From a virus, in the IMG/VR virus record IMGVR_UViG_3300006641_000112, positions 1-30,178 of that record: 30,178 nt of DNA; one strand, 5' to 3'. Numbering within the stretch: the first letter of the stretch is position 1; every line of letters starts with the position of its first letter. The notes below the pieces were generated by a model. That model made no database searches and had not been told where the DNA came from. It saw only the letters and a list, made by a program, of their open reading frames with translations. A program made the translations under genes and the position numbers. Shown piece after piece: positions 1 to 14,589 of this stretch.

Positions 1-34
1 CGCCGCTCAAGCGCAGGGGAGGTTATTCGCATGA
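1..34 (+). CDS. 3' end of an upstream gene (partial)
   Basis: One frame is open from the window edge (codons from base 2) to a TGA at 32-34, giving the C-terminal residues AAQAQGRLFA. The stop would overlap the next gene's ATG as ATGA, the junction used repeatedly in this phage. That is the only support; the fragment is too short to identify, and an open stretch of this length could occur by chance. Confidence 0.3.
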   Translation, partial: AAQAQGRLFA

Positions 35-525
35 CACCGAACGACCGCGCCGAGATGGCGCGCATCCTGGTCTCGCTCGCGGAGATGAAACCAGGCGGAA
101 AGATCACGCCGGAGTCGCTCGAGCTCTGGTACTCGGCGATGAGCTCCTGGTCGATCGAGGAGTTTCGCGCGGCAGCTCAACACCTGATGTTGCACGAGGA
201 ATACTTCCCGAACCCCTGGCATTTTCAGCAGCTCCGCAAGGCGCAACGAATGACGCCGGGCGAGGCCTGGGCGATTGCTTTGCAGCACGTCCGCTCGGGC
301 TCCTATCACGCAGGCCCGGCGATCCCGGAGGTCGAGCGCGCCGTCCAGGCGCTCGGCGGATGGAAGGTCATCGCCTGGTCAAGCGTCGACGCGCTTCCGT
401 TTCTCGAGAAGCGATTCGCCTCGCACTACGACCAACTCGCCGACGTCGCCGAGACGCGCCAGGAGCTCCCGCAGCTCGCGCACGACAACCCGGTCCGCGG
501 ACTGATCGGAGCGATCGGCAAGTGA
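31..525 (+). CDS. putative helicase loader (G39P-like)
   Basis: A 164-residue soluble protein. Its first ~75 residues (short acidic helix, a Trp-Tyr pair, then a pattern ending in PNPWHFQQL) resemble the loader/inhibitor family typified by SPP1 G39P, which delivers the replicative helicase to the phage origin. The family match is recognised by pattern, not by search. A strong ribosome binding site, GGGGAGG at 16-22, lies eight bases before the ATG and fixes the start. It opens a run of tightly packed small genes that includes an SSB-tail protein, a nuclease-like protein and RusA, which fits a DNA replication role. No partner helicase is visible in the window. It could instead be another replication-associated helical protein. 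Confidence 0.5.
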   Translation: MTPNDRAEMARILVSLAEMKPGGKITPESLELWYSAMSSWSIEEFRAAAQHLMLHEEYFPNPWHFQQLRKAQRMTPGEAWAIALQHVRSGSYHAGPAIPEVERAVQALGGWKVIAWSSVDALPFLEKRFASHYDQLADVAETRQELPQLAHDNPVRGLIGAIGK

Positions 526-758
526 GACTTGTCGATTCGATGAACGAAGCCTGGATGGCGCGACGCCTTGGACTCCCGCTCGATTGGGATGCGGGCGTCA
601 CGACCGCCGAGCAGCGCCGCGAAAAGATCCGCACCTCGATTCTCGAGCAGCAGCGCGCGCTCTCGATCGCAGGCAAGCGCAAAGGCCAACCCGCCGAAAC
701 ATGGAAGGCGCTCTTCGAGCGTCTGTATCGCACACCGTTAAACAACCCGGAGACCTAG
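522..758 (+). CDS. small hypothetical protein
   Basis: A 78-residue charged protein of unknown function. The GTG at 522 overlaps the previous stop as GTGA and has a GGAG about nine bases upstream, so I prefer it over the in-frame ATG at 540, which would give 72 residues. The sequence looks helical and soluble: an N-terminal segment with MARRLGLPLDWD, then a basic Arg/Lys/Gln-rich helix. No catalytic motif or membrane segment is visible. Its position between the putative helicase loader and an SSB-tail protein suggests replication or a small DNA-associated role, which is inference from position only. Coding is supported by the overlap junctions at its start and the well-placed ribosome site of the next gene just before its end. 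Confidence 0.6.
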   Translation: MRLVDSMNEAWMARRLGLPLDWDAGVTTAEQRREKIRTSILEQQRALSIAGKRKGQPAETWKALFERLYRTPLNNPET

Positions 759-761
759 ACG

Positions 762-1031
762 ATGCCTCAATACGACAACACGAACAGCGGACTCCTCGCG
801 AAAAACAAACGCAAGGAGAAGGACACGCACCCGGACTACTCCGGCTCGATCAACGTCGGAGGCGTCGAGTATTGGCTCTCCGGATGGCTAAAGACCGGCA
901 AAGAAGGATCGAAGCTCGCAGGCGAGAAGTTTTTCTCGCTCTCCGTTCGACCGAAGGACGAGCAGCGCGCACCGGCTCCCGCACCGGCTCCTGTCCCGGC
1001 TGACGACTTCAACGACGACATCCCGTTCTGA
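762..1031 (+). CDS. small protein with SSB-like acidic C-terminal tip
   Basis: An 89-residue protein with a GGAGA ribosome site at 749-753. The first ~65 residues form a compact, probably beta-rich domain (DNTNSGLL, then HPDYSGSINV, GVEYWLSGWLK and FFSLSV) of a type common in phage replication regions. A flexible Pro-Ala linker (residues ~68-80) follows, then the ending DDFNDDIPF. The acidic DDIPF ending closely matches the C-terminal tip with which bacterial SSB recruits its partner proteins. Architecture of small fold, disordered Pro/Ala linker and acidic tip copies SSB in miniature. A role as ssDNA-binding protein or as a lure for SSB-interacting host proteins is inference; no canonical full-length OB fold can be confirmed by eye. 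Confidence 0.6.
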   Translation: MPQYDNTNSGLLAKNKRKEKDTHPDYSGSINVGGVEYWLSGWLKTGKEGSKLAGEKFFSLSVRPKDEQRAPAPAPAPVPADDFNDDIPF

Positions 1032-1033
1032 CC

Positions 1034-1312
1034 GTGACGACCATCCATCGAGAGTCGCCGTTCGGGCGAGTGAAGCAGACCGTGATCCCGATCTCGCGCG
1101 TCCGGATTGTTCATCACGTTGATCGCGTGAGCGGAATGAACAACGGGTGGCACGTCGAGTACCTACCGGCCGGGAAGTCGCGGTGGTGGTGGAACTGGCG
1201 CGTCTACCGTCGCGAACGCACCGAGCAGGGCGCGCGTCTCCTCGCGGATGTGCTGATCGCCGAGCGATCGGTGACGCTCACCGGCTACGAGAACAACGAG
1301 GTCGAGATATGA
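1034..1312 (+). CDS. hypothetical protein
   Basis: A 92-residue protein beginning at GTG 1034, two bases after the previous stop. I do not recognise it. It is basic and aromatic, with a WWWNWRVYRRER stretch near residues 50-61 that looks like an exposed beta-strand pair, and an acidic C-terminus. There is no signal peptide, membrane segment or metal motif. Its stop overlaps the next gene's ATG as ATGA, so it sits in the same translationally coupled run as its neighbours. Several Trp and Arg residues might suit nucleic acid binding, but that is speculative. Confidence 0.6.
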   Translation: MTTIHRESPFGRVKQTVIPISRVRIVHHVDRVSGMNNGWHVEYLPAGKSRWWWNWRVYRRERTEQGARLLADVLIAERSVTLTGYENNEVEI

Positions 1313-1488
1313 CCGTCGCTCGAGAGATCCAACCGCCTCGAGAGACCGTCGCACCTCGAGACCGGCAAGACCTCGAGGAGATCGCCAGGCTCGCTCGATG
1401 GGTCGGTGCGCTCGAGGTCGATGACGAATACACCCTGACGCTCGAGCAGCTCGAGCGCCTGGCACGGCTCCTCAAGGTGGCAGCATGA
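1309..1488 (+). CDS. small hypothetical protein, CTCGAG-rich gene
   Basis: A 59-residue, highly charged, mostly helical protein of unknown function; the second half is a leucine-rich amphipathic helix (LEQLERLARLLKV). The ATG overlaps the previous stop as ATGA and the stop overlaps the next ATG in the same way. The oddity is in the DNA: this 180-base gene holds seven copies of the palindrome CTCGAG, at 1319, 1337, 1355, 1372, 1411, 1441 and 1450. The first three straddle codons (xCT-CGA-G) and the last four read CTC-GAG, so one codon pair does not explain them all. Confidence 0.6.
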   Translation: MTVAREIQPPRETVAPRDRQDLEEIARLARWVGALEVDDEYTLTLEQLERLARLLKVAA

Positions 1489-1613
1489 AGAAACCAGGCC
1501 TCGGCTCGCTGATCAGCGGGCTTGTCTCCGTCGCCGTCGTTGGCGCGATCCTCGGCATTGGTGCGGGCGCGCTCGCAGTCGTCGCGACGTGGATCTATCG
1601 GGTCTTCACTTGA
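1485..1613 (+). CDS. 42-residue single-span membrane protein
   Basis: A tiny gene of 42 residues whose ATG overlaps the previous stop as ATGA. It begins MKKPGLGSL, followed by a long hydrophobic segment (residues ~10-37, rich in Val, Ala, Gly, Ile) and a short tail WIYRVFT. The two lysines before the span predict an inner-membrane peptide with the C-terminus in the periplasm. No lipobox is present. Function is unknown; small early phage membrane peptides have varied roles, including exclusion and host takeover, but nothing here selects one. Overlap with its neighbour and a typical positively charged N-terminus support it as real. Confidence 0.55.
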   Translation: MKKPGLGSLISGLVSVAVVGAILGIGAGALAVVATWIYRVFT

Positions 1614-1616
1614 CAC

Positions 1617-2204
1617 ATGGCATTCACGGTAGACGTCCATCCGCGGGTTCTCGAGGAGTCGCTGACGTTAGCGTCGAGCGTCAATCTCGGCCGTCGCGGA
1701 GACGGAAGCGACGGAACGCCAGAGCAGCAGCTCGTCGGGATTCTCGGGCAGAACACGATCAACTTCGCGATCGGTCGGAAGCTCATGCAACCGAGCAACC
1801 GACACGACGGCGGCGTCGACTTCGAGCTCTTCGGTCTGACGTTCGACGTCAAGACGATGACGCGCTCGGTCGATCCGAAGCTCGAGTACGTCAACAACCT
1901 AGTCGCGAGTCAGATCGCATTCGACGTCGACGCTTACCTGTTCCTGTCATTCAACCGCACGACAGACCGGATGACCGTCTGCGGATGGTTACCGAAGGAC
2001 GAATTCCTCGCTCGAGCGGAACTGTACGCGGCGGGGGAGACCCGGCACCGAGCGGACGGGACATCGTTCGAGATGAAAACCGACACCTTCGAGATCGCGA
2101 ACGCGGAGCTCTACAGCACGGCGACATCTTGGCCGGAGCTGTTCGTTCAGATGTCAACCTACGCGACATTTCAGCAATTAACGCGGAGGTCGGGAACGAG
2201 GTGA
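1617..2204 (+). CDS. PD-(D/E)XK nuclease-like protein
   Basis: A 195-residue protein whose middle carries the spacing expected of the PD-(D/E)XK nuclease fold: Glu36 in a helix, Asp68 in the segment GGVDFELFG, and Asp77-Val-Lys79 in FDVK on the next strand. These would be the metal-binding acidic residues and catalytic lysine. The C-terminal half (residues ~100-190) lacks further recognised motifs. It sits directly before RusA with a GTGA overlap, so the two are probably made together, suggesting processing of recombination or replication intermediates. Family membership comes from the motif alone. A degenerate, non-cleaving nuclease fold or a restriction-enzyme-like protein remains possible. 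The ATG at 1617 is four bases after the previous stop. Confidence 0.55.
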   Translation: MAFTVDVHPRVLEESLTLASSVNLGRRGDGSDGTPEQQLVGILGQNTINFAIGRKLMQPSNRHDGGVDFELFGLTFDVKTMTRSVDPKLEYVNNLVASQIAFDVDAYLFLSFNRTTDRMTVCGWLPKDEFLARAELYAAGETRHRADGTSFEMKTDTFEIANAELYSTATSWPELFVQMSTYATFQQLTRRSGTR

Positions 2205-2599
2205 TCCCCTTGGAATTCACGCTTCCTTGGCCTCCCTCGGTGAACCATTACTGGCGCAATTTCCGCGGCCGGATGGTGATCGGTGCTCGAGGTCGCGCGT
2301 ATCGGAAGGATGCGACCTCGGCAATACACGAGCAGGCGGTCCCGATCGAGGAGATCGGCGGACCGTTGAAGGTCGAGCTCCTGGCGTTCCCGCCTGATCG
2401 ACGCCGTCGCGATCTCGACAACCTACAGAAGGCGCTCCTCGACTCGATCGTCGCAGCGGGCGTGATCGAGGACGACAGCAATATCGACGACCTCCGCGTA
2501 GTTCGCGGTCCGGTCTTCCCAGGCGGGAAGGTCGAGGTCGTCATCCGACCGTACACCTCGGAGACTAACTTCACGACACGCAGGGGATCTGAACCGTGA
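2201..2599 (+). CDS. rusA: RusA-type Holliday junction resolvase
   Basis: A 132-residue protein of the RusA family, which cuts four-way DNA junctions symmetrically as a dimer and removes branches before packaging. The signature is clear: a start rich in PWPPSVNHYW, then DLDNLQK at residues 71-77 and DD at 91-92. Asp71, Asp73, Lys77 and Asp92 keep the spacing of the E. coli RusA catalytic residues Asp70, Asp72, Lys76 and Asp91. Length is normal for the family. The start is GTG at 2201, overlapping the upstream stop as GTGA; its own stop overlaps the next GTG likewise. It lies beside a nuclease-like gene and just ahead of the putative late regulator. Confidence 0.93.
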   Translation: MIPLEFTLPWPPSVNHYWRNFRGRMVIGARGRAYRKDATSAIHEQAVPIEEIGGPLKVELLAFPPDRRRRDLDNLQKALLDSIVAAGVIEDDSNIDDLRVVRGPVFPGGKVEVVIRPYTSETNFTTRRGSEP

Positions 2600-3045
2600 G
2601 CACATCAACCGCCGACGCTTTCGAGCGAAAACCCAGGAACGCAACCGACGCGACCGCCTTCGTGGACTGGCGAATGTACCAATGGGCCAGGTTCGCTCGA
2701 GATCGTCTCGGGGAGCTCGGGTTCCCCAGGGAATCGGTCAGCACGAAGCTACTGCGCGAGATCGTGCTCGGGATCAACTCACCGTCCGGATATTGTCCGG
2801 ATGAGACCTGGCCGCAGGAGGTCGCCGCGGTCGAGCGCTGTCTGACTCGGTTATGTCGCGGGCGTCACGCCTGGGCGCAGCTTGTCGAGGTTACCTACCT
2901 CACACCGCGCGACGAACCGAACGAGGCGAGGGCGCGACGGATGCGGATCAGCGAGCGCCAGTACAAAGAGCTCCTCGCTCGATTCCGGAATGCGATGTTC
3001 GGTGCGCTGATCATGGAAGACGGTCAGATGCAAAAAAGCGCTTGA
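2596..3045 (+). CDS. putative Q-like antiterminator / late gene regulator
   Basis: A 149-residue protein at the junction between replication genes and the late operon. After a polar N-terminus comes FVDWRMYQWARFARDRLG and, near residues 113-140, a helix-turn-helix-like stretch ending RRMRISERQYKELLARFRNAM, reminiscent of sigma region 4 and of phage Q-type antiterminators. Q proteins bind DNA near a late promoter and modify RNA polymerase to read through terminators. Context agrees: it is the last gene before HNH/terminase, and three terminator-like hairpins lie inside the late operon downstream without promoters I can recognise. The GTG start at 2596 overlaps the RusA stop as GTGA. An alternative is a sigma-like or RinA/ArpU-like regulator. 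Confidence 0.5.
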   Translation: MSTSTADAFERKPRNATDATAFVDWRMYQWARFARDRLGELGFPRESVSTKLLREIVLGINSPSGYCPDETWPQEVAAVERCLTRLCRGRHAWAQLVEVTYLTPRDEPNEARARRMRISERQYKELLARFRNAMFGALIMEDGQMQKSA

Positions 3046-3058
3046 AGACGTCTTTTGC

Positions 3059-3400
3059 ATGACGAAACTATCGAAACCTCGACTCTGGTCGAGGGAAACG
3101 CAGCGCGATCGTTTGTACGGTCGCAGATGGCGATCAGCTCGAGAGACACACCTTGCAGCTCATCCGCTCTGCGTCTACTGCGAGCAGCTCGGACGAGTGA
3201 CGGCCGCGACGATCGTCGATCACATCGTTCCGCATCGAGGCAACGAGACGCTCTTCTGGGACGCGGCGAACTGGCAGTCACTCTGTCAACCGTGTCACGA
3301 CGGAGCGAAGGCAGAGCTCGAGCAGACCGGAACCCTGCGAGGGTGCGATACCTCGGGCGTCCCGGTAGATCCCGGCCATCCCTGGAATTTTTCGCGATGA
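3059..3400 (+). CDS. HNH endonuclease associated with terminase
   Basis: A 113-residue HNH nuclease. Cys38-x-x-Cys41 and Cys76-x-x-Cys79 form the zinc-binding cysteines, Asp54-His55 provide the catalytic first motif, Asn71 the middle Asn, and His80 follows the last Cys. Small HNH proteins encoded next to terminase are widespread; in HK97 the equivalent nuclease assists terminase in cutting DNA at the packaging site. It precedes the small terminase by 85 bases, the usual order. The ATG at 3059 follows the previous stop by 13 bases. The gene belongs to the packaging module and should act in the cytoplasm on concatemeric phage DNA. Confidence 0.9.
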   Translation: MTKLSKPRLWSRETQRDRLYGRRWRSARETHLAAHPLCVYCEQLGRVTAATIVDHIVPHRGNETLFWDAANWQSLCQPCHDGAKAELEQTGTLRGCDTSGVPVDPGHPWNFSR

Positions 3401-3485
3401 GGGAGGGGAGGGTCGAATCTCTACAGCTCTACGCTTGGACACCGAGCGCGAGCCTGTTCTGTGCTAATCGGCAAGGATTCCAGGA
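3401..3485 (+). other. gap between HNH and small terminase
   Basis: Eighty-five bases without a supported gene. It opens with a purine run (GGGAGGGGAGGG) and ends with AAGGA at about 3472-3476, a plausible ribosome site for the small terminase. A packaging (cos/pac) site often lies near this junction in HK97-like phages, but I see no symmetric element that would identify one. A reading frame starting at ATG 3397 runs through it, but into the terminase gene in another phase. Confidence 0.3.
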
Positions 3486-3896
3486 ATGCTACAACGCGGC
3501 CGGAAATCGGCGGAGGGCCTCTCGGTGGTTCGGGTGGCACCCCATGAAAGGGTCCCCCCTCCTGATCGCCTGGGAGACGACGAGAGCGCGATCTGGCGCG
3601 AGATCGTTTCCTCGAAGCCTGCGGACTGGTTCGGTCCCGACAACCTCCCGCTCCTCGAGCACTACTGCTCGATGGCGGCGGAATCCCGGCGCGTCGCGCG
3701 CAAGCTGCGCGAGGTGAGCCCGGAATGTCTCGACGACTACGACCGCCTGATCAACCTACAGACGAAGATCGGCGGACAACTCGCAAGCCTGGCGACGAAA
3801 ATGCGGCTCACGCAACAGAGTCGATACGGCGCTCGAGCGGCAGCAACCGCAAGCGATCGCGCGGCTCCGAAGAAACCCTGGGAGTTCGGAACCTAA
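3486..3896 (+). CDS. terS: terminase small subunit (P27 family)
   Basis: A 136-residue protein resembling the P27 family of small terminases, which recognise the packaging site and regulate the large subunit. The N-terminal ~30 residues are basic and proline-rich (VPPPDRLGDDES), followed by a helical core with Trp, a DNLPLLEHYC helix and a final helix QLASLATKMRLTQQSRYG; the C-terminus KKPWEFGT is typical of the family. It stands immediately before the large terminase, as expected. AAGGA about nine bases upstream supports the ATG at 3486. The large-terminase reading frame overlaps its last 172 bases if read from that frame's first ATG. Confidence 0.85.
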   Translation: MLQRGRKSAEGLSVVRVAPHERVPPPDRLGDDESAIWREIVSSKPADWFGPDNLPLLEHYCSMAAESRRVARKLREVSPECLDDYDRLINLQTKIGGQLASLATKMRLTQQSRYGARAAATASDRAAPKKPWEFGT

Positions 3897-5410
3897 CCAG
3901 GGGCGACCGGAACATCGCCTGGATCGAGGCGACCTGTCGGGTGCCGGAAGGCGCGCACGTCGGGCGACCTGTCGCTCTGCGTGAGTTCCAGAAACAGATC
4001 ATTCGAGGGATCTACGATTCCCCGACGAGACGAGCGATCGTTTCGTATGGGCGCAAGAACGGGAAGACCTCGCTCTCCGCGTTCCTGCTACTACTGCACC
4101 TCTGCGGACCGGAAGCTCGAGCGAACTCGCAGCTCTTCTCGGCAGCGCAGAGTCGCGACCAGGCGGCGATCCTTTTCGCGCTCGCCGCGAAGATCGTCCG
4201 GATGTCTCCGGATCTGAATGCGGTCGTCGCGATCAGAGACACGGCGAAGCAGCTCTACTGCCAGGAGCTCGGGACTCTGTACCGGGCGCTCTCGGCGGAG
4301 GCCTCGACCGCCTACGGTCTCTCGCCGGTCTTCACGGTGCACGACGAGCTCGGCCAGGTGAAGGGGCCGCGGAGCGAATTGTACGAAGCGCTCGAGACTG
4401 CGAGCGGCGCCCAGGCGGAGCCGCTCTCGATTGTGATCTCGACGCAGGCGCCGACCGACGCAGACCTTCTGTCGGTGCTGATCGACGACGCGAAAACCGG
4501 CGCCGATCCGAAGACGAAGATTTTCATGTTCTCGGCAGACGAGTCGATGGACCCGTTCTCCGACGAAGCGATGAGGGCGGCGAATCCCGCCTTCGGCGAC
4601 TTCCTCAACCCGACGGAGGTCCGAGAGCAGGCCGCAGCGGCGAAGCGAATGCCGTCGCGCGAGAGCAGCTATCGGAACCTGGTGTTGAACCAACGAGTCG
4701 ACCAGACCTCGCCGTTCGTGCCTCGAGCGATATGGCTGCGGAATTCCCGCGAGCCGGACGAGAGCGCGTTCTACGAGAACCCGGTCTATATCGGGCTCGA
4801 CTTGTCGGCGCGTAACGACCTGACGGCGATGATTGCCGTCGCTCGAGATCGCGAAGGATTGTTTCACGTTCGACCGTTTTTCTACGCGCCGAGCCTGGGG
4901 CTCTCTGACCGGGCCTCGAGGGATCGTGCACCGTATGACGTCTGGCGTGATCGAGGCTCCCTGGTGGCGACTCCGGGCGCCTCCGTCGATTACGCGACCG
5001 TCGCCGAGGAACTCTGTCAGCTCTGCGACGACTACGACGTCGCCGCGATCGCCTTCGATCGGTGGCGGATGGATGTGTTCAAGACCGAGTTGTCGCGGCT
5101 CGGTCGCGAGCTCCCCCTGGTGGAGTTCGGGCAAGGTTTCCGCGACATGGCTCCGGCGCTCGATGCGCTCGAGGGCGAACTGATGGCGGAGCGGATCTGT
5201 CACGGCGGGCATCCCGTCCTGACCTGGAACGCTGCGAACGCAGTCGCAACTCGAGACGCCGCCGGGAATCGCAAACTGGACAAAGCAAAAGCGACCGGCC
5301 GCATTGACGGCATGGTCGCGCTCGCGATGGCGATCGGCGCCTTCGCGAAGGCCGCACCGAAGCTCGACGGACCAAGTGTCTACGAAGAGCGCGGCATCCT
5401 GACCATCTAA
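3725..5410 (+). CDS. terL: terminase large subunit (HK97 type)
   Basis: The packaging motor: an N-terminal ATPase translocates DNA and a C-terminal RNase H-like nuclease cuts it. Numbering from ATG 3725 (561 residues), the Walker A variant is GRKNGKT with Lys114, and Walker B is FTVHDE with Asp207-Glu208. The nuclease carries Asp359 in GLDLSARND, an Asp in IAFDRWRMD and another in GRIDGMVAL. The start is uncertain. Family-like sequence begins only near residue 58 (TRGDRNIAW), just after the small-terminase stop, and no ATG, GTG or TTG lies there. Choices are ATG 3725, with a 57-residue Arg-rich extension overlapping terS; a non-standard CTG at 3878; or GTG 3941 with GAGGCG upstream, which would lose conserved residues. 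Function is certain, N-terminus is not. Confidence 0.93.
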   Translation: MSRRLRPPDQPTDEDRRTTRKPGDENAAHATESIRRSSGSNRKRSRGSEETLGVRNLTRGDRNIAWIEATCRVPEGAHVGRPVALREFQKQIIRGIYDSPTRRAIVSYGRKNGKTSLSAFLLLLHLCGPEARANSQLFSAAQSRDQAAILFALAAKIVRMSPDLNAVVAIRDTAKQLYCQELGTLYRALSAEASTAYGLSPVFTVHDELGQVKGPRSELYEALETASGAQAEPLSIVISTQAPTDADLLSVLIDDAKTGADPKTKIFMFSADESMDPFSDEAMRAANPAFGDFLNPTEVREQAAAAKRMPSRESSYRNLVLNQRVDQTSPFVPRAIWLRNSREPDESAFYENPVYIGLDLSARNDLTAMIAVARDREGLFHVRPFFYAPSLGLSDRASRDRAPYDVWRDRGSLVATPGASVDYATVAEELCQLCDDYDVAAIAFDRWRMDVFKTELSRLGRELPLVEFGQGFRDMAPALDALEGELMAERICHGGHPVLTWNAANAVATRDAAGNRKLDKAKATGRIDGMVALAMAIGAFAKAAPKLDGPSVYEERGILTI

Positions 5411-5420
5411 CGAGGTTTCC

Positions 5421-6644
5421 GTGTCCTGGATTGACCGAATCATGCGACGAAAGAGCGCAGGCCAGACCGCGCTCGATCGTCTGATCATGCGCCTCGAGGG
5501 CACGAGTTCCGCCTCGGGTGTGCACGTCAACGAGCAGACCGCGATGCGCGTCGCGGCCGTCTACGCCTGCGTCCGCGTGATCGCCGAGACGATTGGCTCG
5601 ATGCCGCTCAATATGTACCGCAAGCGGGCCGACGGTGGGCGTGAACGCGCCGCCGAGCATCCGCTCCAGATCCTTCTGCACGATCGACCGAACTCCTGGC
5701 AGACCTCGCAAGAGTTTCGCGAAATGTTGACCGAACACGCGCTCCTTCGCGGCGCCGGGTTCGCGTATATCAACTGGCGCTCACGCGCCTCAAACATCGT
5801 AGACGAGCTGATTCCGCTACACCCGGATCGCGTAACTATTAAGCAGCTCCCGGATATGCAGCTCGTCTACGAGCTACGCAGAGAGCAGGGCGACACGATC
5901 ACCCTGCAAGCCGACGAAGTCTTCACGCTCCGCTACCGGACGAGCGACGGAGTGCAGCCTGTCGGTGTGATCGAATCAGGCCGCGACTCGATCGGTGTCG
6001 CTTATGCGACGCAAGAGTACGCGGGCCGGTTCTATCGAAACGACGCGACGCCTGGTGTGGTGCTGAAGCATCCCGCCAAGCTCTCCGCCGAGGCCGCAGG
6101 ACGACTGAAGGAGACCTGGAACTCCGCCTACGCCGGGAGCGGTAACGCTCGCCGGACCGCGCTCCTCGAGGAGGGGATGTCGATCGAGCGGCTCTCGCTC
6201 TCGAACGACGACTCGCAGTTCCTACAGACGCGCGAATATCAGCGCTCGGAGATCGCGGGACTTTTCCGCGTTCCGCCGCACCTGATCGGCGATCTCTCGA
6301 GGGCGACGTTCTCAAACATCGAGCACCAGTCGCTCGACTTCATCGCGCATTGCATCGGTCCCTGGATGGCTCGATGGGAGCAGTCGATCTCTCGAGATCT
6401 CGTGACCGCTCCGGCGACCTACTTCCCGAAGCTCTCACCGGAGGCGCTCCTGCGCGGCGATCTGAAGTCGCGCTACGACGCCTATGCAATCGGGCGGAAT
6501 TGGGGATGGTTATCGGTGAACGACGTCCGTCGTCTCGAGGATCTGAACCCGATCGACGAGGGCGATGTGTATCTGCAACCGCTCAACATGACCGCGGCAG
6601 GAATGCCGCCGAACAACGACGTCGCGCCTCCTGGCGCGGCATGA
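5421..6644 (+). CDS. portal protein (HK97 family)
   Basis: A 407-residue portal protein, which forms the dodecameric ring at one capsid vertex through which DNA enters and leaves. Recognisable features are the N-terminal VYACVRVIAETIGSMPLNMYR segment (split here as VYACVRVIAETI and SMPLNMYR), PNSWQTSQEFREML, and the later FRVPPHLIGDLSRATFSNIE block, all characteristic of the HK97/lambda-like portal family. Length is normal. Start is GTG at 5421, ten bases after the terminase stop, with CGAGG just upstream. The stop overlaps the protease start as ATGA. Order terminase, portal, protease, capsid is the standard head module. Confidence 0.95.
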   Translation: MSWIDRIMRRKSAGQTALDRLIMRLEGTSSASGVHVNEQTAMRVAAVYACVRVIAETIGSMPLNMYRKRADGGRERAAEHPLQILLHDRPNSWQTSQEFREMLTEHALLRGAGFAYINWRSRASNIVDELIPLHPDRVTIKQLPDMQLVYELRREQGDTITLQADEVFTLRYRTSDGVQPVGVIESGRDSIGVAYATQEYAGRFYRNDATPGVVLKHPAKLSAEAAGRLKETWNSAYAGSGNARRTALLEEGMSIERLSLSNDDSQFLQTREYQRSEIAGLFRVPPHLIGDLSRATFSNIEHQSLDFIAHCIGPWMARWEQSISRDLVTAPATYFPKLSPEALLRGDLKSRYDAYAIGRNWGWLSVNDVRRLEDLNPIDEGDVYLQPLNMTAAGMPPNNDVAPPGAA

Positions 6645-7309
6645 GGACACACATGGAAACGAAACGCTTCAACGTCGCCGCCGAGATCAAGGCGGTCGAC
6701 GACTCGGGAATCATTGAGGGCTACGGCTCCGTCTTCGGAAACCTCGACAGCTACAGCGACATCGTCGCGCCTGGCGCGTTCGCGAAGTCGCTCGAGGAGG
6801 CGAAGGCCTCCGGCCGGATGCCCGCGATGCTCTGGCAGCACAACCAGGAAGAGCCGATCGGTGTCTGGACGGAGATGCGCGAGGACGATCGCGGTCTCTT
6901 CGTGAAGGGCAAGCTCGCCGACACGCAGCGCGGCAAAGAGGCGCGCGAGCTGATCAAGCTCGGCGCTCTGACCGGGCTCTCGATCGGTTACACGACGCGC
7001 AGCTACCAGGTCGACCGCGAGAACGACTCGCGCGTCCTAACGGATGTGCAGCTCTGGGAGGTGTCGCCGGTTACGTTCCCGGCTAACTCCGAGGCGCGCA
7101 TCACGGGCGTCAAGGCGAGCGACATCAGCTCCCCCAAAGATTTCGAGAGGTTCCTGCGTGACGCCGGATTCTCTCGCAAAGAGGCCAAGCAAATTACCGC
7201 GCATGGCTTCGGTGATTCAGATCTGCGTGACGCAGATCCGGATGACATCGCAGAGAACGAGCTCGCCGATCACATCAAGCGAGCGGTCGAGCAGCTCACG
7301 CGCAAGTGA
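6641..7309 (+). CDS. prohead maturation protease (U35/HK97 gp4 type)
   Basis: A 222-residue serine protease that trims the scaffold portion from the capsid protein during head maturation. The family pattern is clear: IIEGYGSVFGNLDSYSD..APGAF near the start, the catalytic His67 in LWQHN, catalytic Ser114 in GLSIGY, and WEVSPVTFPAN after it. Two starts are possible: ATG 6641, overlapping the portal stop as ATGA, and ATG 6653, which has GAGGA five bases upstream; the latter trims four residues. The C-terminal ~60 residues are charged and likely interact with the capsid shell. It lies directly upstream of its substrate, the major capsid protein. Confidence 0.93.
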   Translation: MRTHMETKRFNVAAEIKAVDDSGIIEGYGSVFGNLDSYSDIVAPGAFAKSLEEAKASGRMPAMLWQHNQEEPIGVWTEMREDDRGLFVKGKLADTQRGKEARELIKLGALTGLSIGYTTRSYQVDRENDSRVLTDVQLWEVSPVTFPANSEARITGVKASDISSPKDFERFLRDAGFSRKEAKQITAHGFGDSDLRDADPDDIAENELADHIKRAVEQLTRK

Positions 7310-7349
7310 GCAGAACCTTTCCATCCTTTAATTTTTTGAGGTATTGATC
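7310..7349 (+). promoter_or_regulatory. U-rich leader and ribosome site of capsid gene
   Basis: This 40-base gap contains an AT-rich run, TTTAATTTTTT, unusual in so GC-rich a genome, followed by GAGG at 7338-7341, eight bases before ATG 7350. U-rich tracts ahead of a Shine-Dalgarno are known S1-binding enhancers, which suits the most abundant virion protein. This placement favours ATG 7350 over an upstream in-frame TTG at 7344. No convincing -35/-10 promoter pair is visible. Confidence 0.55.
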
Positions 7350-8567
7350 ATGTCAATCGAAGTGAAGAGCGCCGTCGATGCGCTCGCAAAGGTCGTACAC
7401 GACGAGCGCGTCGCGCTCGACGAGTTCAAGAGCCGCTCGGAAGGCGAGCGCAAGGAGCTCGAGGCGAAGGCTGACGCTCGGTTCGCCGAGGTGCAGAAGT
7501 CGCTCGAGGAAGTGAACGTGAAGCTCGGCCGCATGACGGTCCTGGGCGCGGGCGAAGGTCAGAAGGACAGCGAGCACAAGAGCGCCTTCGTCAACTACAT
7601 CCGCAACCCGCGCGACCAGAAGGCGATCGCAGCTCTCCAGGACGCCGAGCGCAAGGCCGTCTACACGACCGGCTCGGGTGGTTCTGCGGCGGGCGGCTAC
7701 GCTGTCCCCGAGGAGATCTCGCGCGCCATCGTGACGCAGTTGACGAACGTCTCGCCGATGCGCCAGGTGTGCTCGGTGGTGACCGCCTCGAGCCCGGACT
7801 ACAAGATCCTGGTCGACACCCTTGGCACGGGTACGGCATGGGCCGGCGAGAACGGCGCCCGCTCGGAGAGCAACACTCCGCAGCTCGGCGAAGTCGCTCC
7901 GACCTTCGGCACCCTCTACGCTTACCCGAAGGCCTCGGAAGAGTCGCTGAACGACATCTTCGTCGATGTCGCCGGATGGCTGACAAACTCGGTGTCGGTG
8001 GCGTTCGCCGCGGCTGAAGGCGCCGCCTTCACCTCGGGCAACGGAACCAACAAGCCGACCGGCCTGATGGTTGCCACGAAGAGCGCGAACGACGACGCGA
8101 CCCTCGCGTTCGGTTCGCACCAGTTCGTTCTCTCGGGTGGCGCTTCAGACTTCGCGGCCTCCAACCCGTCGGACGCTTTGATCACCCTGATCCACAAGCT
8201 GAAGGCGGGCTACCGCGCGAACGCTCGGTTCATGATGAACAAGGGCGTCCTCGCGTCGGTTCGCAAGTTCAAGGACTCCCAGGGGAACTATTTGTGGCAG
8301 CCGGGCCTCGCGGCCGGAATGCCGAGCACCCTCTTGGGTTACCCGGTCGTCGAGAACGAGGACATGGCCGACGTAGCCGCGAATGCGTTCCCGATTGCCT
8401 TCGGTGACTTCCGTGCCGGTTACACGATCGTCGACCTGGTCGGCCTCCGTGTGACGCTTGACGAGGTCACCTCGCCGGGTCAGGTGAAGTGGATCTTCCG
8501 CAAGCGTGTCGGCGGCAAGGTCACCGACAACCAGGCGGTCAAGGTTCTCAAGATCGCCGCGGCCTAA
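7350..8567 (+). CDS. major capsid protein (HK97 fold)
   Basis: A 405-residue capsid protein. Residues ~1-100 are charged, heptad-like helix (DALAKVVHDERVALDEFKSR and onward), equivalent to the HK97 delta domain that scaffolds the prohead and is then removed by the protease encoded just upstream. The mature region begins around YTTGSGGSAAGGYAVPEEI and shows the family blocks SPMRQVCSVV, AWAGENGARSES, FGTLYAYPKASEESLND and a closing GYTIVDLVGLRVTLDEVTSPGQ. Cleavage probably falls near residues 95-110, by analogy with HK97 at residue 103; the exact site is inferred. It ends in tandem stops TAATAA and is followed by a strong hairpin, consistent with a highly expressed transcript end. Confidence 0.95.
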   Translation: MSIEVKSAVDALAKVVHDERVALDEFKSRSEGERKELEAKADARFAEVQKSLEEVNVKLGRMTVLGAGEGQKDSEHKSAFVNYIRNPRDQKAIAALQDAERKAVYTTGSGGSAAGGYAVPEEISRAIVTQLTNVSPMRQVCSVVTASSPDYKILVDTLGTGTAWAGENGARSESNTPQLGEVAPTFGTLYAYPKASEESLNDIFVDVAGWLTNSVSVAFAAAEGAAFTSGNGTNKPTGLMVATKSANDDATLAFGSHQFVLSGGASDFAASNPSDALITLIHKLKAGYRANARFMMNKGVLASVRKFKDSQGNYLWQPGLAAGMPSTLLGYPVVENEDMADVAANAFPIAFGDFRAGYTIVDLVGLRVTLDEVTSPGQVKWIFRKRVGGKVTDNQAVKVLKIAAA

Positions 8568-8582
8568 TAAGCCAGGAGCCAA

Positions 8583-8618
8583 CCAGGGCGGGAGGGCAAC
8601 CTCCCGCTCTGGTCTTTC
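8583..8618 (+). terminator. hairpin after capsid gene, probable intrinsic terminator
   Basis: A near-perfect inverted repeat: arm 8583-8595 pairs with 8600-8612 in 13 base pairs (one G-U wobble) around the GNRA tetraloop GCAA at 8596-8599. The following bases TCTTTC are only moderately U-rich, so it could terminate partially, or protect the capsid mRNA 3' end. It begins 16 bases after the tandem stop codons, and the next gene starts eight bases after the stem. Confidence 0.8.
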
Positions 8619-8620
8619 AT

Positions 8621-8857
8621 ATGAAGATAATCGTCAAGCATCCCTTCCGGGGCGTCCCGGACGGCGAATATCACGCGCGCGAATTCCAGGTCGGCGACGA
8701 GCTTACGGGCGAACTCGCAGACGTCGCGCTTCTCAATGGATGGGCAGCTCGAGCAGGAGCTCCAGGTCCTACTGAACACCAGGCGCTCGGCGGTGCGCCG
8801 GAACCGTTTCGCGCAGATACATCGACGACCCTGCGTCGTCGTCGCGAGCGGCCCTAG
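8621..8857 (+). CDS. small protein downstream of capsid gene
   Basis: A 78-residue protein. Its first ~45 residues (KHPFRGVPDGEYHAREFQVGDELTGELADVALLNGWA) form a small beta-rich domain of a kind often found between capsid and connector genes in siphoviruses; function is unestablished there too. The remaining tail is polar and Arg-rich and overlaps the next gene by 122 bases in another frame, much more than the 4-base junctions elsewhere. The ATG at 8621 sits eight bases after a stable hairpin and lacks a recognisable ribosome site, so expression may be weak or may depend on read-through. Confidence 0.6.
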   Translation: MKIIVKHPFRGVPDGEYHAREFQVGDELTGELADVALLNGWAARAGAPGPTEHQALGGAPEPFRADTSTTLRRRRERP

Positions 8858-9386
8858 TCTTACCGCGCAGGACGTCGACTACTGCCGCGATCGCGCAGCG
8901 GTGATCGTCGTCAACGACAACTACAAGCTCGCACCCTGGGCGGATGTGCTCTACGCAGCCGACCCGGAATGGTGGGATCTCCACGAGGGCGTGGCGAGCT
9001 TCAAAGGTTTACGAGTGACGCAGGACGCCGGAGCCGCGAGACGGTGGCGTCTGCACTACATCGAGAGCAGGGCGAAGCAGGGCTTTTCCCTCGAGCAGGG
9101 CGTCATTCACCAGGGCGACAACTCGGGATTCCAGGCATTGAACCTAGCGGTCCTGGCGGAGTGCTCGCCGATCGTGCTCCTCGGGTTCGACATGAAAAAG
9201 TCGGGCGCGCGGCGGCATTGGTTCGGGGATCACCCCGGACTACTGAACAAAGATTCCCCGTTCGGGATCTTTGCGTCGGCCTTTAACGAGGCCGCGCAGC
9301 GACATCCCGAGCTGACCATTTACAACGCGACACGCGAGACGGCGCTCGAATGCTTCCCGCGAGTGGCACTTCGCGACGTGATCTAA
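8736..9386 (+). CDS. MptE/DUF115-like Rossmann-type protein (often called norphogenetic protein)
   Basis: A 216-residue protein with a Rossmann-like beginning: CVVVASGPSLTAQDVDYC near residues 33-50, then AAVIVVNDNYKLAPWADVLYAADPEWW, and NSGFQALNLAVL..IVLLGFDM in the C-terminal half. The G-P-S-L loop and N-x-G-x-x-A motif resemble the DUF115/MptE-like family and related sugar-transferase-like folds. Phage relatives are commonly listed under the misspelt name norphogenetic protein without tested function. A role in modifying virion or host-surface glycans is inference. The ATG at 8736 has no obvious ribosome site; GTG 8793 is an alternative that reduces overlap with the upstream gene and keeps the conserved core. 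Confidence 0.65.
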   Translation: MDGQLEQELQVLLNTRRSAVRRNRFAQIHRRPCVVVASGPSLTAQDVDYCRDRAAVIVVNDNYKLAPWADVLYAADPEWWDLHEGVASFKGLRVTQDAGAARRWRLHYIESRAKQGFSLEQGVIHQGDNSGFQALNLAVLAECSPIVLLGFDMKKSGARRHWFGDHPGLLNKDSPFGIFASAFNEAAQRHPELTIYNATRETALECFPRVALRDVI

Positions 9387-9401
9387 CAGGAGACCAAAAA
9401 A

Positions 9402-9833
9402 ATGTCCAAGGGCAATACATTCGAGAACGATCTGATGAAATTGATTTTCCAGGGGACGGCGATCGCCAACCTGGCAGACAACGCGGCGGCATCGCCAAAC
9501 ACCGCGCTCTTCGTGTCGCTGCACACCGCCGACCCCGGCGAAGCGGGCGCTCAAAACACGAGCGAGGCAAGCTACACCGGCTACGCGCGCGTCTCCGTGG
9601 CTCGCACGTCGGGCGGATGGACCGTGACGAACAACTCCGTCACGAACGCCGCCGCGATCACGTTCCCGCAATGCACGGGCGGATCGAACACGATCACGCA
9701 CTTTGCGGTCGGCACCGCTTCGAGCAGCACAGGGAAAATCCTCTACAAGGGCGCGCTCACCGCGTCGCTCGCCGTGTCGAACTTAATCATCCCGGAATTT
9801 GCCGCAGGCACCCTTACGATTTCCGAGGAATAA
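9402..9833 (+). CDS. small virion-associated protein, tail-fibre region
   Basis: A 143-residue protein of a family common in phage structural modules: N-terminal FENDLMKLIFQGTAIANLADN, then ALFVSLHTADPGEAG, YTGYARVSVAR and a beta-rich C-terminus ending in LTISEE. It is often found beside tail fibre genes and is sometimes annotated as tail fibre or decoration protein; no function is proven to my knowledge. CAGGAGAC just upstream provides a good ribosome site for the ATG at 9402. The large fibre begins seven bases after its stop, so the two are likely co-translated. Expected to be part of the virion. Confidence 0.7.
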   Translation: MSKGNTFENDLMKLIFQGTAIANLADNAAASPNTALFVSLHTADPGEAGAQNTSEASYTGYARVSVARTSGGWTVTNNSVTNAAAITFPQCTGGSNTITHFAVGTASSSTGKILYKGALTASLAVSNLIIPEFAAGTLTISEE

Positions 9834-9840
9834 TCGAACC

Positions 9841-12800
9841 GTGGCAACGATCACGACTCGGTCTGGTAAGGGCGCAGCTCTTACTCACCAGGAGGTCGAC
9901 GACAACTTCACGGGGCTCAATACCGAGCTCGGGCAGAAGGAGGTCGCATCGAACAAGGGCGTCGCTAATGGCTACGCCTCCCTCGATGCGGCGGGGAAGG
10001 TTCCGTCCGCACAGCTTCCGTCCTATGTGGACGATGTTGTCGAGGTCGCGAACTTTGCGTCGCTCCCTGGTACGGGCGAGACCGGCAAGATCTACGTCAC
10101 GATCGACACGAACAAAACCTATCGATGGACCGGCTCGGCCTACATCGAGATCAGCGCGTCTCCAGGTTCGACGGACTCGCTCGCTGAAGGATCGACGAAT
10201 CTCTACTTCACCCAGGCTCGAGCTCGCGCATCGGTCTCCGCGTCGGGCTCGCTGTCCTACAATTCGTCGACGGGCGTCTTCTCGTTCTCCGATGCGGTGA
10301 CCTCCGTCGCCGGTCGCACAGGTGCGGTCACGCTCACCTCGAGCGACGTCGGTCTCGGGAGCGTCGAGAACAAAAGCTCCGCGACGATCCGCGGCGAGCT
10401 AACGTCAACGAACGTGACGACGGCTCTCGGTTTTACTCCATACAACTCGACGAACCCGAGCGGATACATCACAAGCTCGTCGTCAATTACTGGCAACGCG
10501 GCAACAGCGACGACGCTTGCGACCGCTCGCACGATCGCGCTCTCTGGCGCAGCAACCGGAACTGCGACCTCGTTCAATGGCTCGGCAAACATCACGATCC
10601 CCGTGACGGGATTGAACGCAAGCAACCTGTCCGCCGGGACGGTTCCAGATGCGCGACTAACCGGGATCTATTCGGGCTTCAGCCACAAGATCGACGGATC
10701 GAACACCGTCTTCACGACGCCAAACAGCGGCAGCACAAGCACAAGCGGGCGCACGGTCTACGGGCTCGCTGAATATAAGAGCGACTCGTCTGCACAGGTC
10801 GGCGCGATCGTTTTTATTGCGCCGAGCGCGGTCTATAACACGATGCACCAGCTCGAGGTGCAGGGGATGTTATACAGTCAGAACATCTTCCGCATGACCG
10901 TGCAAGGTTACAGCTACCTCGGCGCGACGACGGCATGGGCAGACGTTCGCAAGATTAGCTTTGGAACGGTCGACATACAGACGCGGTGGGCGTACACGCC
11001 AGACGGCAAACCGTGCCTAATACTTGGAGACGTTGGGACGACTTGGAGCTACCCGCACATCTCCATCGTTCGCGCGATGTTCTCTCACTCCGGAAGCAGC
11101 GACGCATATTGCTCTGGATGGACTGTCGCGATCGTTACCAGTCTTACGGGCTACCAGTCGATCAGCTCGACGATTTCGGACAGCAGTCTCGTCGGAAGCA
11201 TCACCGGCAACTCTGCAACCGCGACGACACTTGCGACGGGTCGCACCATCGGCATGACTGGCGATGTGACGTGGACGAGCGCATCGTTCAACGGGTCTGG
11301 CAATGTCACAGGAACGGCTACGCTTGCGAACTCTGGGGTGACCGCCGGGACGTATACGAAGGTCACCGTCGATGCAAAAGGTCGAGTCACAACAGGCGCC
11401 TCTCTTGCCTCGGCTGATCTGCCGACCTACACCGGCACCATCACGTCGTCGCAAGTAACGACCGCTCTCGGCTACACCCCGCTCTCCAACGCAACCAGTT
11501 ATTTACCGCTCGCGGGCGGCACAATGACAGGAGCGATCACGTTTGCGGGTGGGCAAACATGGCCGACGTTTAATCAAAACACGACGGGAAGCGCGGCGAC
11601 GCTAACCACCGGCCGAACCATCGGGATGACCGGCGACGTAACGTGGACAAGTTCATCATTTAACGGCTCGGCCAACGTCACGGGAACCGCGACTCTCGCA
11701 AACAGCGGAGTCACAGCGGGAACGTATACAAAGATCACAGTCGATGCGAAGGGTCGAGCGACTAGTGGAACAACCCTTTCTGCTGCGGATATTCCGGCGC
11801 TTACGATGGCGAACATTCCGGGCGCCGCCTACAAGCAAAGCGTCAGATGCGCGACAACGGCAAACATTACGCTTTCCGGAACACAAACTATTGACGGAAT
11901 CGCCGTTGTGGCCGGAGATCGTGTTCTGGTTAAAAACCAGACGACCGCATCGCAGAACGGCATCTATGTCGTTTCAGCATCGACATGGACTAGATCAACA
12001 GATGCGGATGCTGCGGACGAAATTGGAGCGGCTGTAGTAAACGTCGACCAAGGCACCGCAAACGGTGGTGAACTTTGGACGACCACATTCAAGACAACAG
12101 ACACTCTTGGCACGACCTCGATGAACTGGTACGAGGTCCTCTACAACACCGGATCGTGGGCAATCTCCGTCACCGGCTCGTCGGCATCTTGCACGGGCAA
12201 CGCTGCGACAGCGACGACGCTACAGACTGCTCGGACAATCAACGGCGTCAGCTTCAACGGCTCTGCGAACATCACAGTCGCAGACTCAACAAAGCTCCCG
12301 CTCGCAGGCGGAACAATGACTGGGGCGATTACGTTCGCCGCCGGGCAGACTTGGCCGACCTTTAACCAGAACACGACAGGCAGCGCCGCAACCCTGACAA
12401 CAGGTCGAACGATCGGCATGACTGGCGACGTCACTTGGACGAGCGCATCATTCAACGGCTCGGCGAATGTGACCGGAACGGCAACTCTTGCGAACAGCGG
12501 AGTGACTGCCGGGACGTACACGAAGGTGACGGTCGACGCAAAAGGTCGAGCGACTAGCGGGACAACGCTGTCAGCGTCCGATATTCCCGCTCTGACAATG
12601 GCGAACATTCCAGGCGCCGCGTACAAGCAGAGCGTCAGATGTGCAACCACCGCAAATATCACGCTCTCGGGAACGCAAACGATAGACGGAGTCGCGGTAG
12701 TTGCGGGAGATCGCGTTCTAGTAAAGAACCAAACAACCGCATCGCAAAACGGCATCTATGTCGTTTCTGCGACAGCGTGGGCAAGAGCGACGGACGCAGA

Positions 12801-13566
12801 CGCATCGGATGAGATCGGCGCTGCGATGGTTAATATTGACCAAGGCACCGCAAACGGCGGCGAGCTTTGGACAACAACCTACCGGACGACCGACACGTTA
12901 GGGACGACCTCGATGAATTGGTACGAGGTTGTCTATAACACGGGATCGTGGGGAATATCTGTCACCGGATCATCGGCTTCATGTACTGGAAACGCAGCAA
13001 CCGCGACGACGCTTGCAACAGCTCGAACGCTTACGATTGGAAGCACCGGGAAAACATTCAACGGTTCCGCGAACGTATCGTGGACTCTTGCGGAAATTGG
13101 GGCGATCTCGGGCGTCACGATTACCAACGACACGACGACGGCAGCGACTCGGTATCTCACATTCACAAGCGCAACTAGCGGCGCAATCTCGGCCGCAAAT
13201 GTGTCGTCAACAAAGCTGACGTTTAACCCGTCAACCGGAGATTTTACGGCAGGCGGCAACGTCACCGCATACTCTGATGAACGAGTCAAGGCGAACTGGC
13301 GGCAGCTAGACGACGGGTTCCTGGTCAAGCTCGCAAGCGTGAAGTCAGGGATCTACGACCGCACCGACGCAGAGATCACACAAGTCGGTGTGTCCGCACA
13401 GTCTCTTCGCGACGTTTTACCGCACGCCGTGATCGAGGCAGAAAACGGAGATTTTTCGGTCGCCTACGGTAACGCGGCGCTCGTCTCTGCGGTAGAACTT
13501 GCGAAAGAAGTCGTCGTGTTAAAGAAAGAGCTCGACGCCTTGCGCCGTTCGCTTGGGGAGCGCTAG
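9841..13566 (+). CDS. tail fibre with C-terminal S74 intramolecular chaperone
   Basis: A 1241-residue, Ser/Thr/Gly-rich beta protein. The GTG at 9841 is preferred because it starts the usual fibre N-terminus (TTRSGKGAALTHQEVDDNF); an ATG at 9799 would only add residues overlapping the previous gene. Residues ~155-460 include typical fibre shaft motifs (YTP, GNAATATTLATARTI). From residue 555 two tandem 264-residue units follow (11503-12294 and 12295 onward), preceded by a partial copy. The last ~97 residues are a peptidase S74 chaperone: Ser1145 and Lys1150 in SDERVK form the likely catalytic dyad, followed by GVSAQSLRDVLPHAV and a C-terminal coiled coil. It should trimerise the fibre, then cut itself off. 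Probably host receptor binding. Confidence 0.85.
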   Translation: MATITTRSGKGAALTHQEVDDNFTGLNTELGQKEVASNKGVANGYASLDAAGKVPSAQLPSYVDDVVEVANFASLPGTGETGKIYVTIDTNKTYRWTGSAYIEISASPGSTDSLAEGSTNLYFTQARARASVSASGSLSYNSSTGVFSFSDAVTSVAGRTGAVTLTSSDVGLGSVENKSSATIRGELTSTNVTTALGFTPYNSTNPSGYITSSSSITGNAATATTLATARTIALSGAATGTATSFNGSANITIPVTGLNASNLSAGTVPDARLTGIYSGFSHKIDGSNTVFTTPNSGSTSTSGRTVYGLAEYKSDSSAQVGAIVFIAPSAVYNTMHQLEVQGMLYSQNIFRMTVQGYSYLGATTAWADVRKISFGTVDIQTRWAYTPDGKPCLILGDVGTTWSYPHISIVRAMFSHSGSSDAYCSGWTVAIVTSLTGYQSISSTISDSSLVGSITGNSATATTLATGRTIGMTGDVTWTSASFNGSGNVTGTATLANSGVTAGTYTKVTVDAKGRVTTGASLASADLPTYTGTITSSQVTTALGYTPLSNATSYLPLAGGTMTGAITFAGGQTWPTFNQNTTGSAATLTTGRTIGMTGDVTWTSSSFNGSANVTGTATLANSGVTAGTYTKITVDAKGRATSGTTLSAADIPALTMANIPGAAYKQSVRCATTANITLSGTQTIDGIAVVAGDRVLVKNQTTASQNGIYVVSASTWTRSTDADAADEIGAAVVNVDQGTANGGELWTTTFKTTDTLGTTSMNWYEVLYNTGSWAISVTGSSASCTGNAATATTLQTARTINGVSFNGSANITVADSTKLPLAGGTMTGAITFAAGQTWPTFNQNTTGSAATLTTGRTIGMTGDVTWTSASFNGSANVTGTATLANSGVTAGTYTKVTVDAKGRATSGTTLSASDIPALTMANIPGAAYKQSVRCATTANITLSGTQTIDGVAVVAGDRVLVKNQTTASQNGIYVVSATAWARATDADASDEIGAAMVNIDQGTANGGELWTTTYRTTDTLGTTSMNWYEVVYNTGSWGISVTGSSASCTGNAATATTLATARTLTIGSTGKTFNGSANVSWTLAEIGAISGVTITNDTTTAATRYLTFTSATSGAISAANVSSTKLTFNPSTGDFTAGGNVTAYSDERVKANWRQLDDGFLVKLASVKSGIYDRTDAEITQVGVSAQSLRDVLPHAVIEAENGDFSVAYGNAALVSAVELAKEVVVLKKELDALRRSLGER
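11503..13032 (+). repeat. tandem 792-bp duplication within tail fibre
   Basis: Copy 1 runs 11503-12294 and copy 2 from 12295 to about 13032, offset exactly 792 bases (264 codons), beginning at LPLAGGTMTGAITFA. Proteins are almost identical. DNA is not: in the first 50 aligned codons I count 30 different codons, with only one amino-acid change (Gly to Ala). A third partial copy of the TIGMTGDVTW...KGR segment lies upstream at about 11250-11390. Confidence 0.9.
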
Positions 13567-13569
13567 TCG

Positions 13570-14199
13570 ATGGGATTAAACACATCGGGCACAATCAGCA
13601 TCGGCGGGGCTACCGTTGGGCAGTCAGTAAACCTTGAGCTCGGAAGAGCATCGTCAGCCAATAGCAGCCTCGGAGAGAGTGCGCTGCGAAGCCTTGCGGG
13701 TGTTGCAACAGGTGCAATCGCACTCTCAAATTTTTACGGAAAGTCGAACCTTGCGGCAACTTTGAACCAGTACGCAGCGGCGGGCGGCTATGACGTCGTC
13801 ATGGAACGGTCAATCGTTCAAATGTTTGCAAGCTACGTCGAGGCCTACGTCAAATTGGTGTTAAACACGAACGGGACGGCCTATTACCAGTACGGCGACA
13901 CCAACACGGCGACAACTAACTTTTCCACGTTTACATGGAAAACGGGCGGCGGCGCCGTTGGTGATTATTACGCATACATGACAACACCGACGGGCGACGC
14001 ATTTTCTGCAAGTAGCGCAACCAATACTGCTCTGGCGTTAAGCACGACTCGCGAGTGGATGATTCTCGCATCTGCCGGAAATGGTAGCGAGATGACCGTT
14101 GCTAATAACTCAACAATTCAAATCCGAAATGTAGGCGGATCAGTTCTAGCGAGCAGGACCGTCTCAATGTACGCATTCGCATCGGCGCCGTCGTTCTGA
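13570..14199 (+). CDS. virion/fibre-associated protein
   Basis: A 209-residue protein starting three bases after the fibre stop. The first ~60 residues (SGTISIGGATVGQSVNLELGR, LGESALRSLAGVATGAIALSNFYGKS split here) form a module often found at the start of phage virion proteins; the GAIALSNFYGKS ending is characteristic. The remaining ~145 residues are a beta-rich domain with many Asn, Thr and Ala and no recognised enzyme motif. Codon use is AT-richer than in the head genes, like the second half of the fibre, and it contains no CTCGAG site, so it probably travelled with that segment. Likely an accessory tip or a fibre-attached protein; precise role unknown. Confidence 0.65.
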   Translation: MGLNTSGTISIGGATVGQSVNLELGRASSANSSLGESALRSLAGVATGAIALSNFYGKSNLAATLNQYAAAGGYDVVMERSIVQMFASYVEAYVKLVLNTNGTAYYQYGDTNTATTNFSTFTWKTGGGAVGDYYAYMTTPTGDAFSASSATNTALALSTTREWMILASAGNGSEMTVANNSTIQIRNVGGSVLASRTVSMYAFASAPSF

Positions 14200-14372
14200 T
14201 GAACAAATACGTCGCAACAATTCGACGCGCTGACGGCGTCGAGGAAATAATCTTGTCAGCAGAGACTATGCAGGCAGCAATCGCAGAGTCTTTTGAAATT
14301 TTGAAGAGTCGAGATCAAGCGATTGGATTTAGTGTTGCAAGGTTTCAGATCGACAACGTCACCGCGGAGTGA
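14199..14372 (+). CDS. 57-residue hypothetical protein
   Basis: Begins at ATG 14199, sharing one base with the previous stop (TGATG). The product is a small soluble protein: MNKYVATIRRADGVEEI, then a helix (SAETMQAAIAESFEILKSR) and a final strand (GFSVARFQID). The beta-alpha-beta look suggests a compact fold, but I do not recognise it. Junction type and codon pattern support coding. Confidence 0.55.
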   Translation: MNKYVATIRRADGVEEIILSAETMQAAIAESFEILKSRDQAIGFSVARFQIDNVTAE

Positions 14373-14374
14373 AA

Positions 14375-14542
14375 GTGAGCAGCGTGATCTTATTGAATGT
14401 AACGGTCGAAGAGGCAAACGTCATCCTTGCATCTCTTGCAAAGCAACCCTTCGAGATCGTCGCCGGACTGATCGACAAGCTGCAACGCCAAGCGCAACCG
14501 CAGCTCGCACCGAAGGCAGAAGGAGCTGATCCGGCTCCGTGA
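14375..14542 (+). CDS. 55-residue hypothetical phage protein
   Basis: A GTG at 14375, two bases after the preceding stop, opens a 55-residue frame: a strand (VILLNVTVEEANVIL), a helix (ASLAKQPFEIVAGLIDKLQRQA) and a flexible Pro/Ala/Gln tail. Short proteins with this N-V-I-L-x-x-L-A-x-x-P-F pattern are frequent in phage structural regions, without known function. A second GTG three codons in is an alternative start. Its stop shares a base with a 15-codon frame that follows. Confidence 0.55.
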   Translation: MSSVILLNVTVEEANVILASLAKQPFEIVAGLIDKLQRQAQPQLAPKAEGADPAP

Positions 14543-14589
14543 TGAATCAGGCCGCGTCCGACTTCGAGACCGGCTCGGAGGTTGAATGA
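14542..14589 (+). CDS. 15-codon coupled mini-ORF
   Basis: ATG 14542 shares a base with the previous stop (TGATG), and its TGA at 14587-14589 overlaps the next gene's ATG (ATGA). The peptide would be MNQAASDFETGSEVE. It exactly fills the only gap in this operon section, so its use may be to carry ribosomes across to the repeat-protein start at 14586, which also has GGAGG at 14577-14581. Whether the peptide itself matters is unknown. Confidence 0.4.
   Translation: MNQAASDFETGSEVE

Follow-up and report, generated by a model that had tools for sequence, protein, structure and literature searches.

Over-representation of the palindrome CTCGAG in a clade of related phages

The closest described systems are HIP1 (GCGATCGC) and the alternative HIP palindromes of cyanobacteria, which are tied to host methyltransferases and for which methylation- or repair-linked accumulation has been proposed (Elhai 2015, PMC4390886). 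For CTCGAG itself, an orphan methyltransferase has been described from Nocardia (Blow et al. 2016, PMC4752239). The Nocardia motif, tied to this solitary enzyme, is clustered in non-coding DNA near replication genes, whereas in the phages described here the same hexamer is spread over coding DNA. CTCGAG is also the target of the XhoI/PaeR7I restriction-modification systems. Restriction-site avoidance by phages accounts for losses and not for a gain of CTCGAG, although most other palindromes are avoided here too: in the window the other 63 hexamer palindromes, pooled, stand at 0.74 of expectation, in agreement with the remark in the preliminary description that phages lose palindromes.

The object of the analysis was a 30,178-base IMG/VR virus record, hereafter the window, together with its relatives. 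Like HIP1 and the alternative HIPs, the phage clade has one GC-rich palindrome far above expectation, in several reading frames within genes, with other palindromes not enriched and with a density of about one or more per kb. Unlike HIP1, the palindrome is another sequence, is found in phages and occurs about 2-fold more often than codon models predict; most CTCGAG-rich carriers yielded no cognate methyltransferase. HIP1 itself is unremarkable here (10 GCGATCGC sites).

Site counts and codon-based expectations

Exact counting, which for a palindrome covers both strands, gave 94 CTCGAG sites in the window. Base composition predicts 10.0 and a third-order Markov model, a check proposed earlier, predicts 45; the 83 sites expected by a fourth-order model are a near-circular figure, since its pentamers include CTCGAG itself. 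The preliminary description had reported 24 sites in the first 5,000 bases and seven in the 180-base gene at 1309, and both counts were exact (the seven at 1319–1450 within 1309–1488). It had confined the enrichment to 1–10857, which does contain 40 sites but was too narrow, since 14586–30178 is as rich as the first block and only one stretch of the window has no site (Table 1). Within the densest cluster, the sites at 1411, 1441 and 1450 are retained in some relatives, and the other four lie in a badly aligning stretch.

Table 1. Features of the window and the evidence for them
Feature	Position	Strand	Evidence or remark
3′ end of N6/N4 DNA methyltransferase gene, cut by window edge	1..34	+	Window base 1 = base 2973 of L003
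First CTCGAG block, 40 sites	118..10857	. (palindrome)	Exact count; excess over codon shuffles
Densest CTCGAG cluster, 7 sites in small gene 1309–1488	1319..1455	.	Exact count; relatives' alignment
Terminase large subunit gene	3725..5410	+	8 CTCGAG vs 2.5 expected; query that found the clade
CTCGAG-free 4.1-kb stretch, mainly variable distal tail-fibre module	10858..14956	.	Own codons predict ~1 site
Second CTCGAG block, 54 sites	14957..29761	.	Exact count; codon shuffles

The tail-fibre module (10430–14400) has a lower GC content of about 0.57, aligns poorly among relatives and ends with an S74 chaperone domain. It has no CTCGAG, but the idea that it lags behind the rest of the genome in acquiring the motif is weak, because its own codons give only about one expected site. 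Outside this module the index of dispersion per 500 bases is 1.15, indicating near-random placement.

Within genes the window has 93 sites, against 26.0±4.5 expected after permutation of synonymous codons and 38.0±4.9 after a shuffle that also keeps the dinucleotides at codon junctions. These sites comprise 42 CTC-GAG, 22 xCT-CGA-G and 29 xxC-TCG-AGx, where the junction-preserving null predicts 24, 3.4 and 10.5. All three frames therefore exceed the codon-based nulls, which supports the earlier proposal of a bias at the DNA level. The use of several frames had been recognized correctly, and the C-TCG-AG site indicated near 4916 is present at 4915 in the terminase frame, but "at least one" was a large underestimate for this frame. 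A codon-pair-preserving shuffle, also suggested earlier, returned 89±1.5 against 93, close to the observed count; this null is nearly vacuous because it leaves just 9% of codons free to change place and keeps CTC-GAG as one of its pairs.

The choice of codons depends on whether the neighboring bases can complete the motif. In pooled related genomes, arginine is encoded by CGA in 124 of 196 NCT_G contexts versus 96 of 345 N[AGT]T_G contexts, leucine by CTC in 244 of 278 cases ahead of GAG versus 753 of 1,262 ahead of other GNN codons, and serine by TCG in 178 of 226 C_AG contexts versus 55 of 111 [AGT]_AG contexts; the pooled genomes are related and non-independent, which inflates P values and z scores, and the window alone gives the same pattern. 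Among all 4,096 hexamers in five pooled genomes, CTCGAG (546 versus 242, z 24.7, likewise inflated) was behind only a CCTGG word. It was enriched 2.3-fold, while words one letter off were near expectation.

Many words are avoided in the clade, and if codon totals are fixed, a null shifts codons to the remaining words. To test for such displacement, Gibbs sampling was used to fit codon models to the window and G003, a related 37.5-kb record, which together contain 235 sites. The expectation was 94±8 from codons and their junctions, 108±8 when 164 depleted hexamers were added, 141±8 with all tetramers, and 145±9 in the strictest fit with all tetramers and the 164 depleted hexamers, leaving a ratio of 1.6. 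Overall, the window has about 9 times the number of sites expected from base composition, and the excess is 2.4–3.6-fold over synonymous shuffles and 1.6–2.5-fold over fitted codon models, still well beyond chance under both. The CTCGAG excess is a bias on the DNA sequence itself, acting in every frame and exceeding what codon usage, tetranucleotide bias and displacement from avoided words produce. The HIP1-like behavior proposed in the preliminary description is supported by the codon shuffles, the hexamer survey, the codon-context choice and the fitted models.

CCWGG occurs at about 2.3 times the codon expectation in the clade, whichever strand or frame is considered, and is wholly avoided in a sister record, G010. 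As a second, equally enriched motif it did not hold up, since in the strictest model CCTGG fell to 185 versus 154 and CCAGG to 171 versus 129, so that context and displacement make up most of this signal. Flanking by G or C at both ends of CTCGAG is about 3-fold enriched and an A flank about 1-fold, figures that are uncorrected for tetramer bias and on which we do not lean.

Distribution among relatives and turnover of sites

A search with the terminase large subunit recovered some 28 contigs whose identity was at least 82%. The excess is common to more than 20 related IMG/VR contigs (about 2–4 sites per kb). Every locus of the main clade has 1.9–3.7 CTCGAG per kb, and the longer records have 2.7–3.9, where HIP palindromes are expected on the order of one per kb. 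CTCGAG was the top outlier of the 64 palindromes in each main-clade genome tested (z 7.2–13.5). The excess also occurs in three loci found through the integrase (L316, L317 and L326) and, at a greater distance from the clade, in L323 and L324. By contrast, G010, with a terminase 84% identical and a GC content of 0.55, has 3 sites versus 13.4 expected, and also avoids CCWGG, while G015 and L023 (82% terminase identity, GC 0.69) show little excess (39 versus 25 and 23 versus 13). Since the excess is clade-wide but reversed in the first of these and weak in the other two, it follows lineage and not protein content.

Outside the clade, CTCGAG reached z >4 in 1 of 52 terminase relatives. Only one of 111 contigs not picked for the motif had any palindrome with z ≥7 and a ratio of at least 2. 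This palindrome was GGATCC in the unrelated phage contig L236 (26 against 11), which may be another instance of such enrichment. Of 79 contigs selected for containing a CTCGAG cluster, a sampling that gives no frequency, 11 still had z ≥5 after removal of the cluster genes; these 11 have little in common with the clade.

At about 85–87% DNA identity, 58–79% of CTCGAG sites are retained versus 43–50% for all hexamers, a retention similar to that of other xTCGAx words. Only 38 of 86 sites are retained in all compared relatives that align. Such turnover, together with the near-random spread, points to a bias at the level of density and not to fixed functional sites. A packaging-related motif, one of the earlier suggestions, is unlikely at a density of 3 sites per kb when the sites turn over in the ordinary way.

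Gene content and candidate hosts

The window encodes terminase, portal, prohead protease and major capsid proteins in a row, followed by tail genes and an exonuclease, and the last codons of an integrase are found at its far end. G003 adds a serine integrase, an S24-type repressor, YqaJ and RecT recombination genes, a replication-type protein and a DNA methyltransferase. Since this gene set includes an integrase and a repressor, and the window contains the integrase end, this tailed phage is probably temperate.

A weak match to an Rz-like spanin hints that the host is Gram-negative. The related contigs are metagenomic, and many of the source samples we take, from their IMG numbers, to be freshwater or estuarine. 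One scan of genome contigs gave a single portal relative, at 39%. A picocyanobacterial host is not favored: one exonuclease gene weakly matches those of the cyanophages S-CBS1 and KBS-S-2A (32%), which avoid CTCGAG, and nothing else shared with them was detected. A verrucomicrobial host was dismissed, as phage P8625 has weak tape-measure and RecT matches and no CTCGAG excess. An alphaproteobacterial host is a further candidate: the best-listed plasmid relatives of the integrase are alphaproteobacterial, yet the sampled plasmids lack the excess. It was found in none of ten bacterial plasmid stretches, nine of them alpha- or betaproteobacterial and in part chosen as relevant to integrase or terminase matches. 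In contrast to the clade, a 30-kb stretch of the Methylorubrum extorquens AM1 megaplasmid (L333) strongly avoids CTCGAG (3 versus 20.2 expected, z -6.2).

Possible origins of the excess and the avoided motifs

The methyltransferase gene cut by the window edge spans positions 2257–3006 of L003, a record of the same phage, and encodes 249 aa in L003, G003 and G009, with a C-terminal part like DpnA- and CcrM-type enzymes. It is inserted with a replication-type gene on one side and a DUF6475 gene on the other (L207, 10314–11063, minus strand; window 1–34). That this enzyme, carried by three enriched records, recognizes CTCGAG and drives the excess is very improbable. In G004, G005, G006, G007, G014 and G016 the genes that flank it elsewhere adjoin each other directly, the methyltransferase being absent, and the excess is equal, which argues that the phage methyltransferase is not its cause. 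Moreover, relative to the G003 copy, the gene is identical at 750 of 750 bases in G009 and 749 of 750 in L003, while the genomes are otherwise about 84–87% identical to the window; near-identity in genomes some 15% different points to a recent move of the gene. When motifs restored in the carriers were used to derive its target, none was consistent. In the clade records that were searched, PF01555 matched only G003 and G009, and PF00145 and PF07669 matched none. The search for a CTCGAG methyltransferase advised in the preliminary description thus gave none of these families in most enriched relatives, where a HIP palindrome would have its cognate enzyme in the same genome, and no CTCGAG methyltransferase or nuclease of an XhoI/PaeR7I-type system was recognized in the window or most relatives.

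We tentatively favor, at somewhat short of even chances, a signature from a shared host lineage, to which we attribute the bias. The host would modify CTCGAG, for example by a solitary methyltransferase, and this modification would shield the sites from restriction; a methylation- or repair-linked mutation bias could then let them pile up, as proposed for HIP palindromes, and the phages would acquire the signature during residence as prophages. The ten plasmid stretches lacking the excess and the strictest-model ratio of just 1.6 speak against this explanation. Its main rival is ordinary higher-order composition, that is, favored CTC, GAG, CGA and TCG codons, common TCGA and CTCG tetramers and displacement by avoided restriction-type motifs. 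The third-order Markov model already expects 45 of the 94 sites, with tetramers the fitted models expect 141 sites instead of 94, and many words are strongly avoided, so composition accounts for part of the raw ratio. It does not account for the remainder under the models tried, which still leave 235 sites against 145±9, nor for one-letter neighbors near expectation or codon preferences seen only where they complete CTCGAG, and we consider it unlikely, with perhaps one chance in a few, as the full explanation.

Selection by the phages for CTCGAG as a dense DNA signal, such as a mark for recombination, packaging or self-recognition, appears improbable. The similar density throughout the clade and the retention above that of the average hexamer would agree with it, but other TCGA hexamers are retained equally well, fewer than half of the sites are common to all compared relatives, their spread is near random and no motif-reading protein is known in the phage. 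A host signature could also mean that a HIP1-like system exists beyond the known cyanobacterial cases, in a bacterial lineage that uses CTCGAG methylation for repair or self-recognition and has driven its temperate phages to about 3 sites per kb, a broader reading that we regard as rather doubtful. Phages unrelated to the clade may bear this mark as well, as in the 11 cluster-picked contigs. A small clade whose close relatives accumulate or avoid the same palindrome is a compact test of host methylation, repair and selection as reasons for a genome to fill with one palindrome, a question that HIP1 also poses. Its motif profile could act as a fingerprint to locate the host.

Avoidance of restriction-type motifs is strong in the window, the fibre module included. 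CTNAG (the DdeI site) is absent where codon shuffles predict about 54 sites, and GGATCC, CCCGGG, CTGCAG and ACGCGT are also absent; GCCGGC occurs 3 times, CCAGC/GCTGG 3 times (68 expected) and CAGTG/CACTG once (24 expected). TCCGGA, retained in the window, is nearly missing from G004, G007 and G016. Such differences in the avoided sets of close relatives may record different host restriction systems. G009 (L220) retains CTNAG, CTGCAG and CCAGC, all avoided by the window, and since it has the CTCGAG excess despite this different set, the excess is separable from restriction avoidance.
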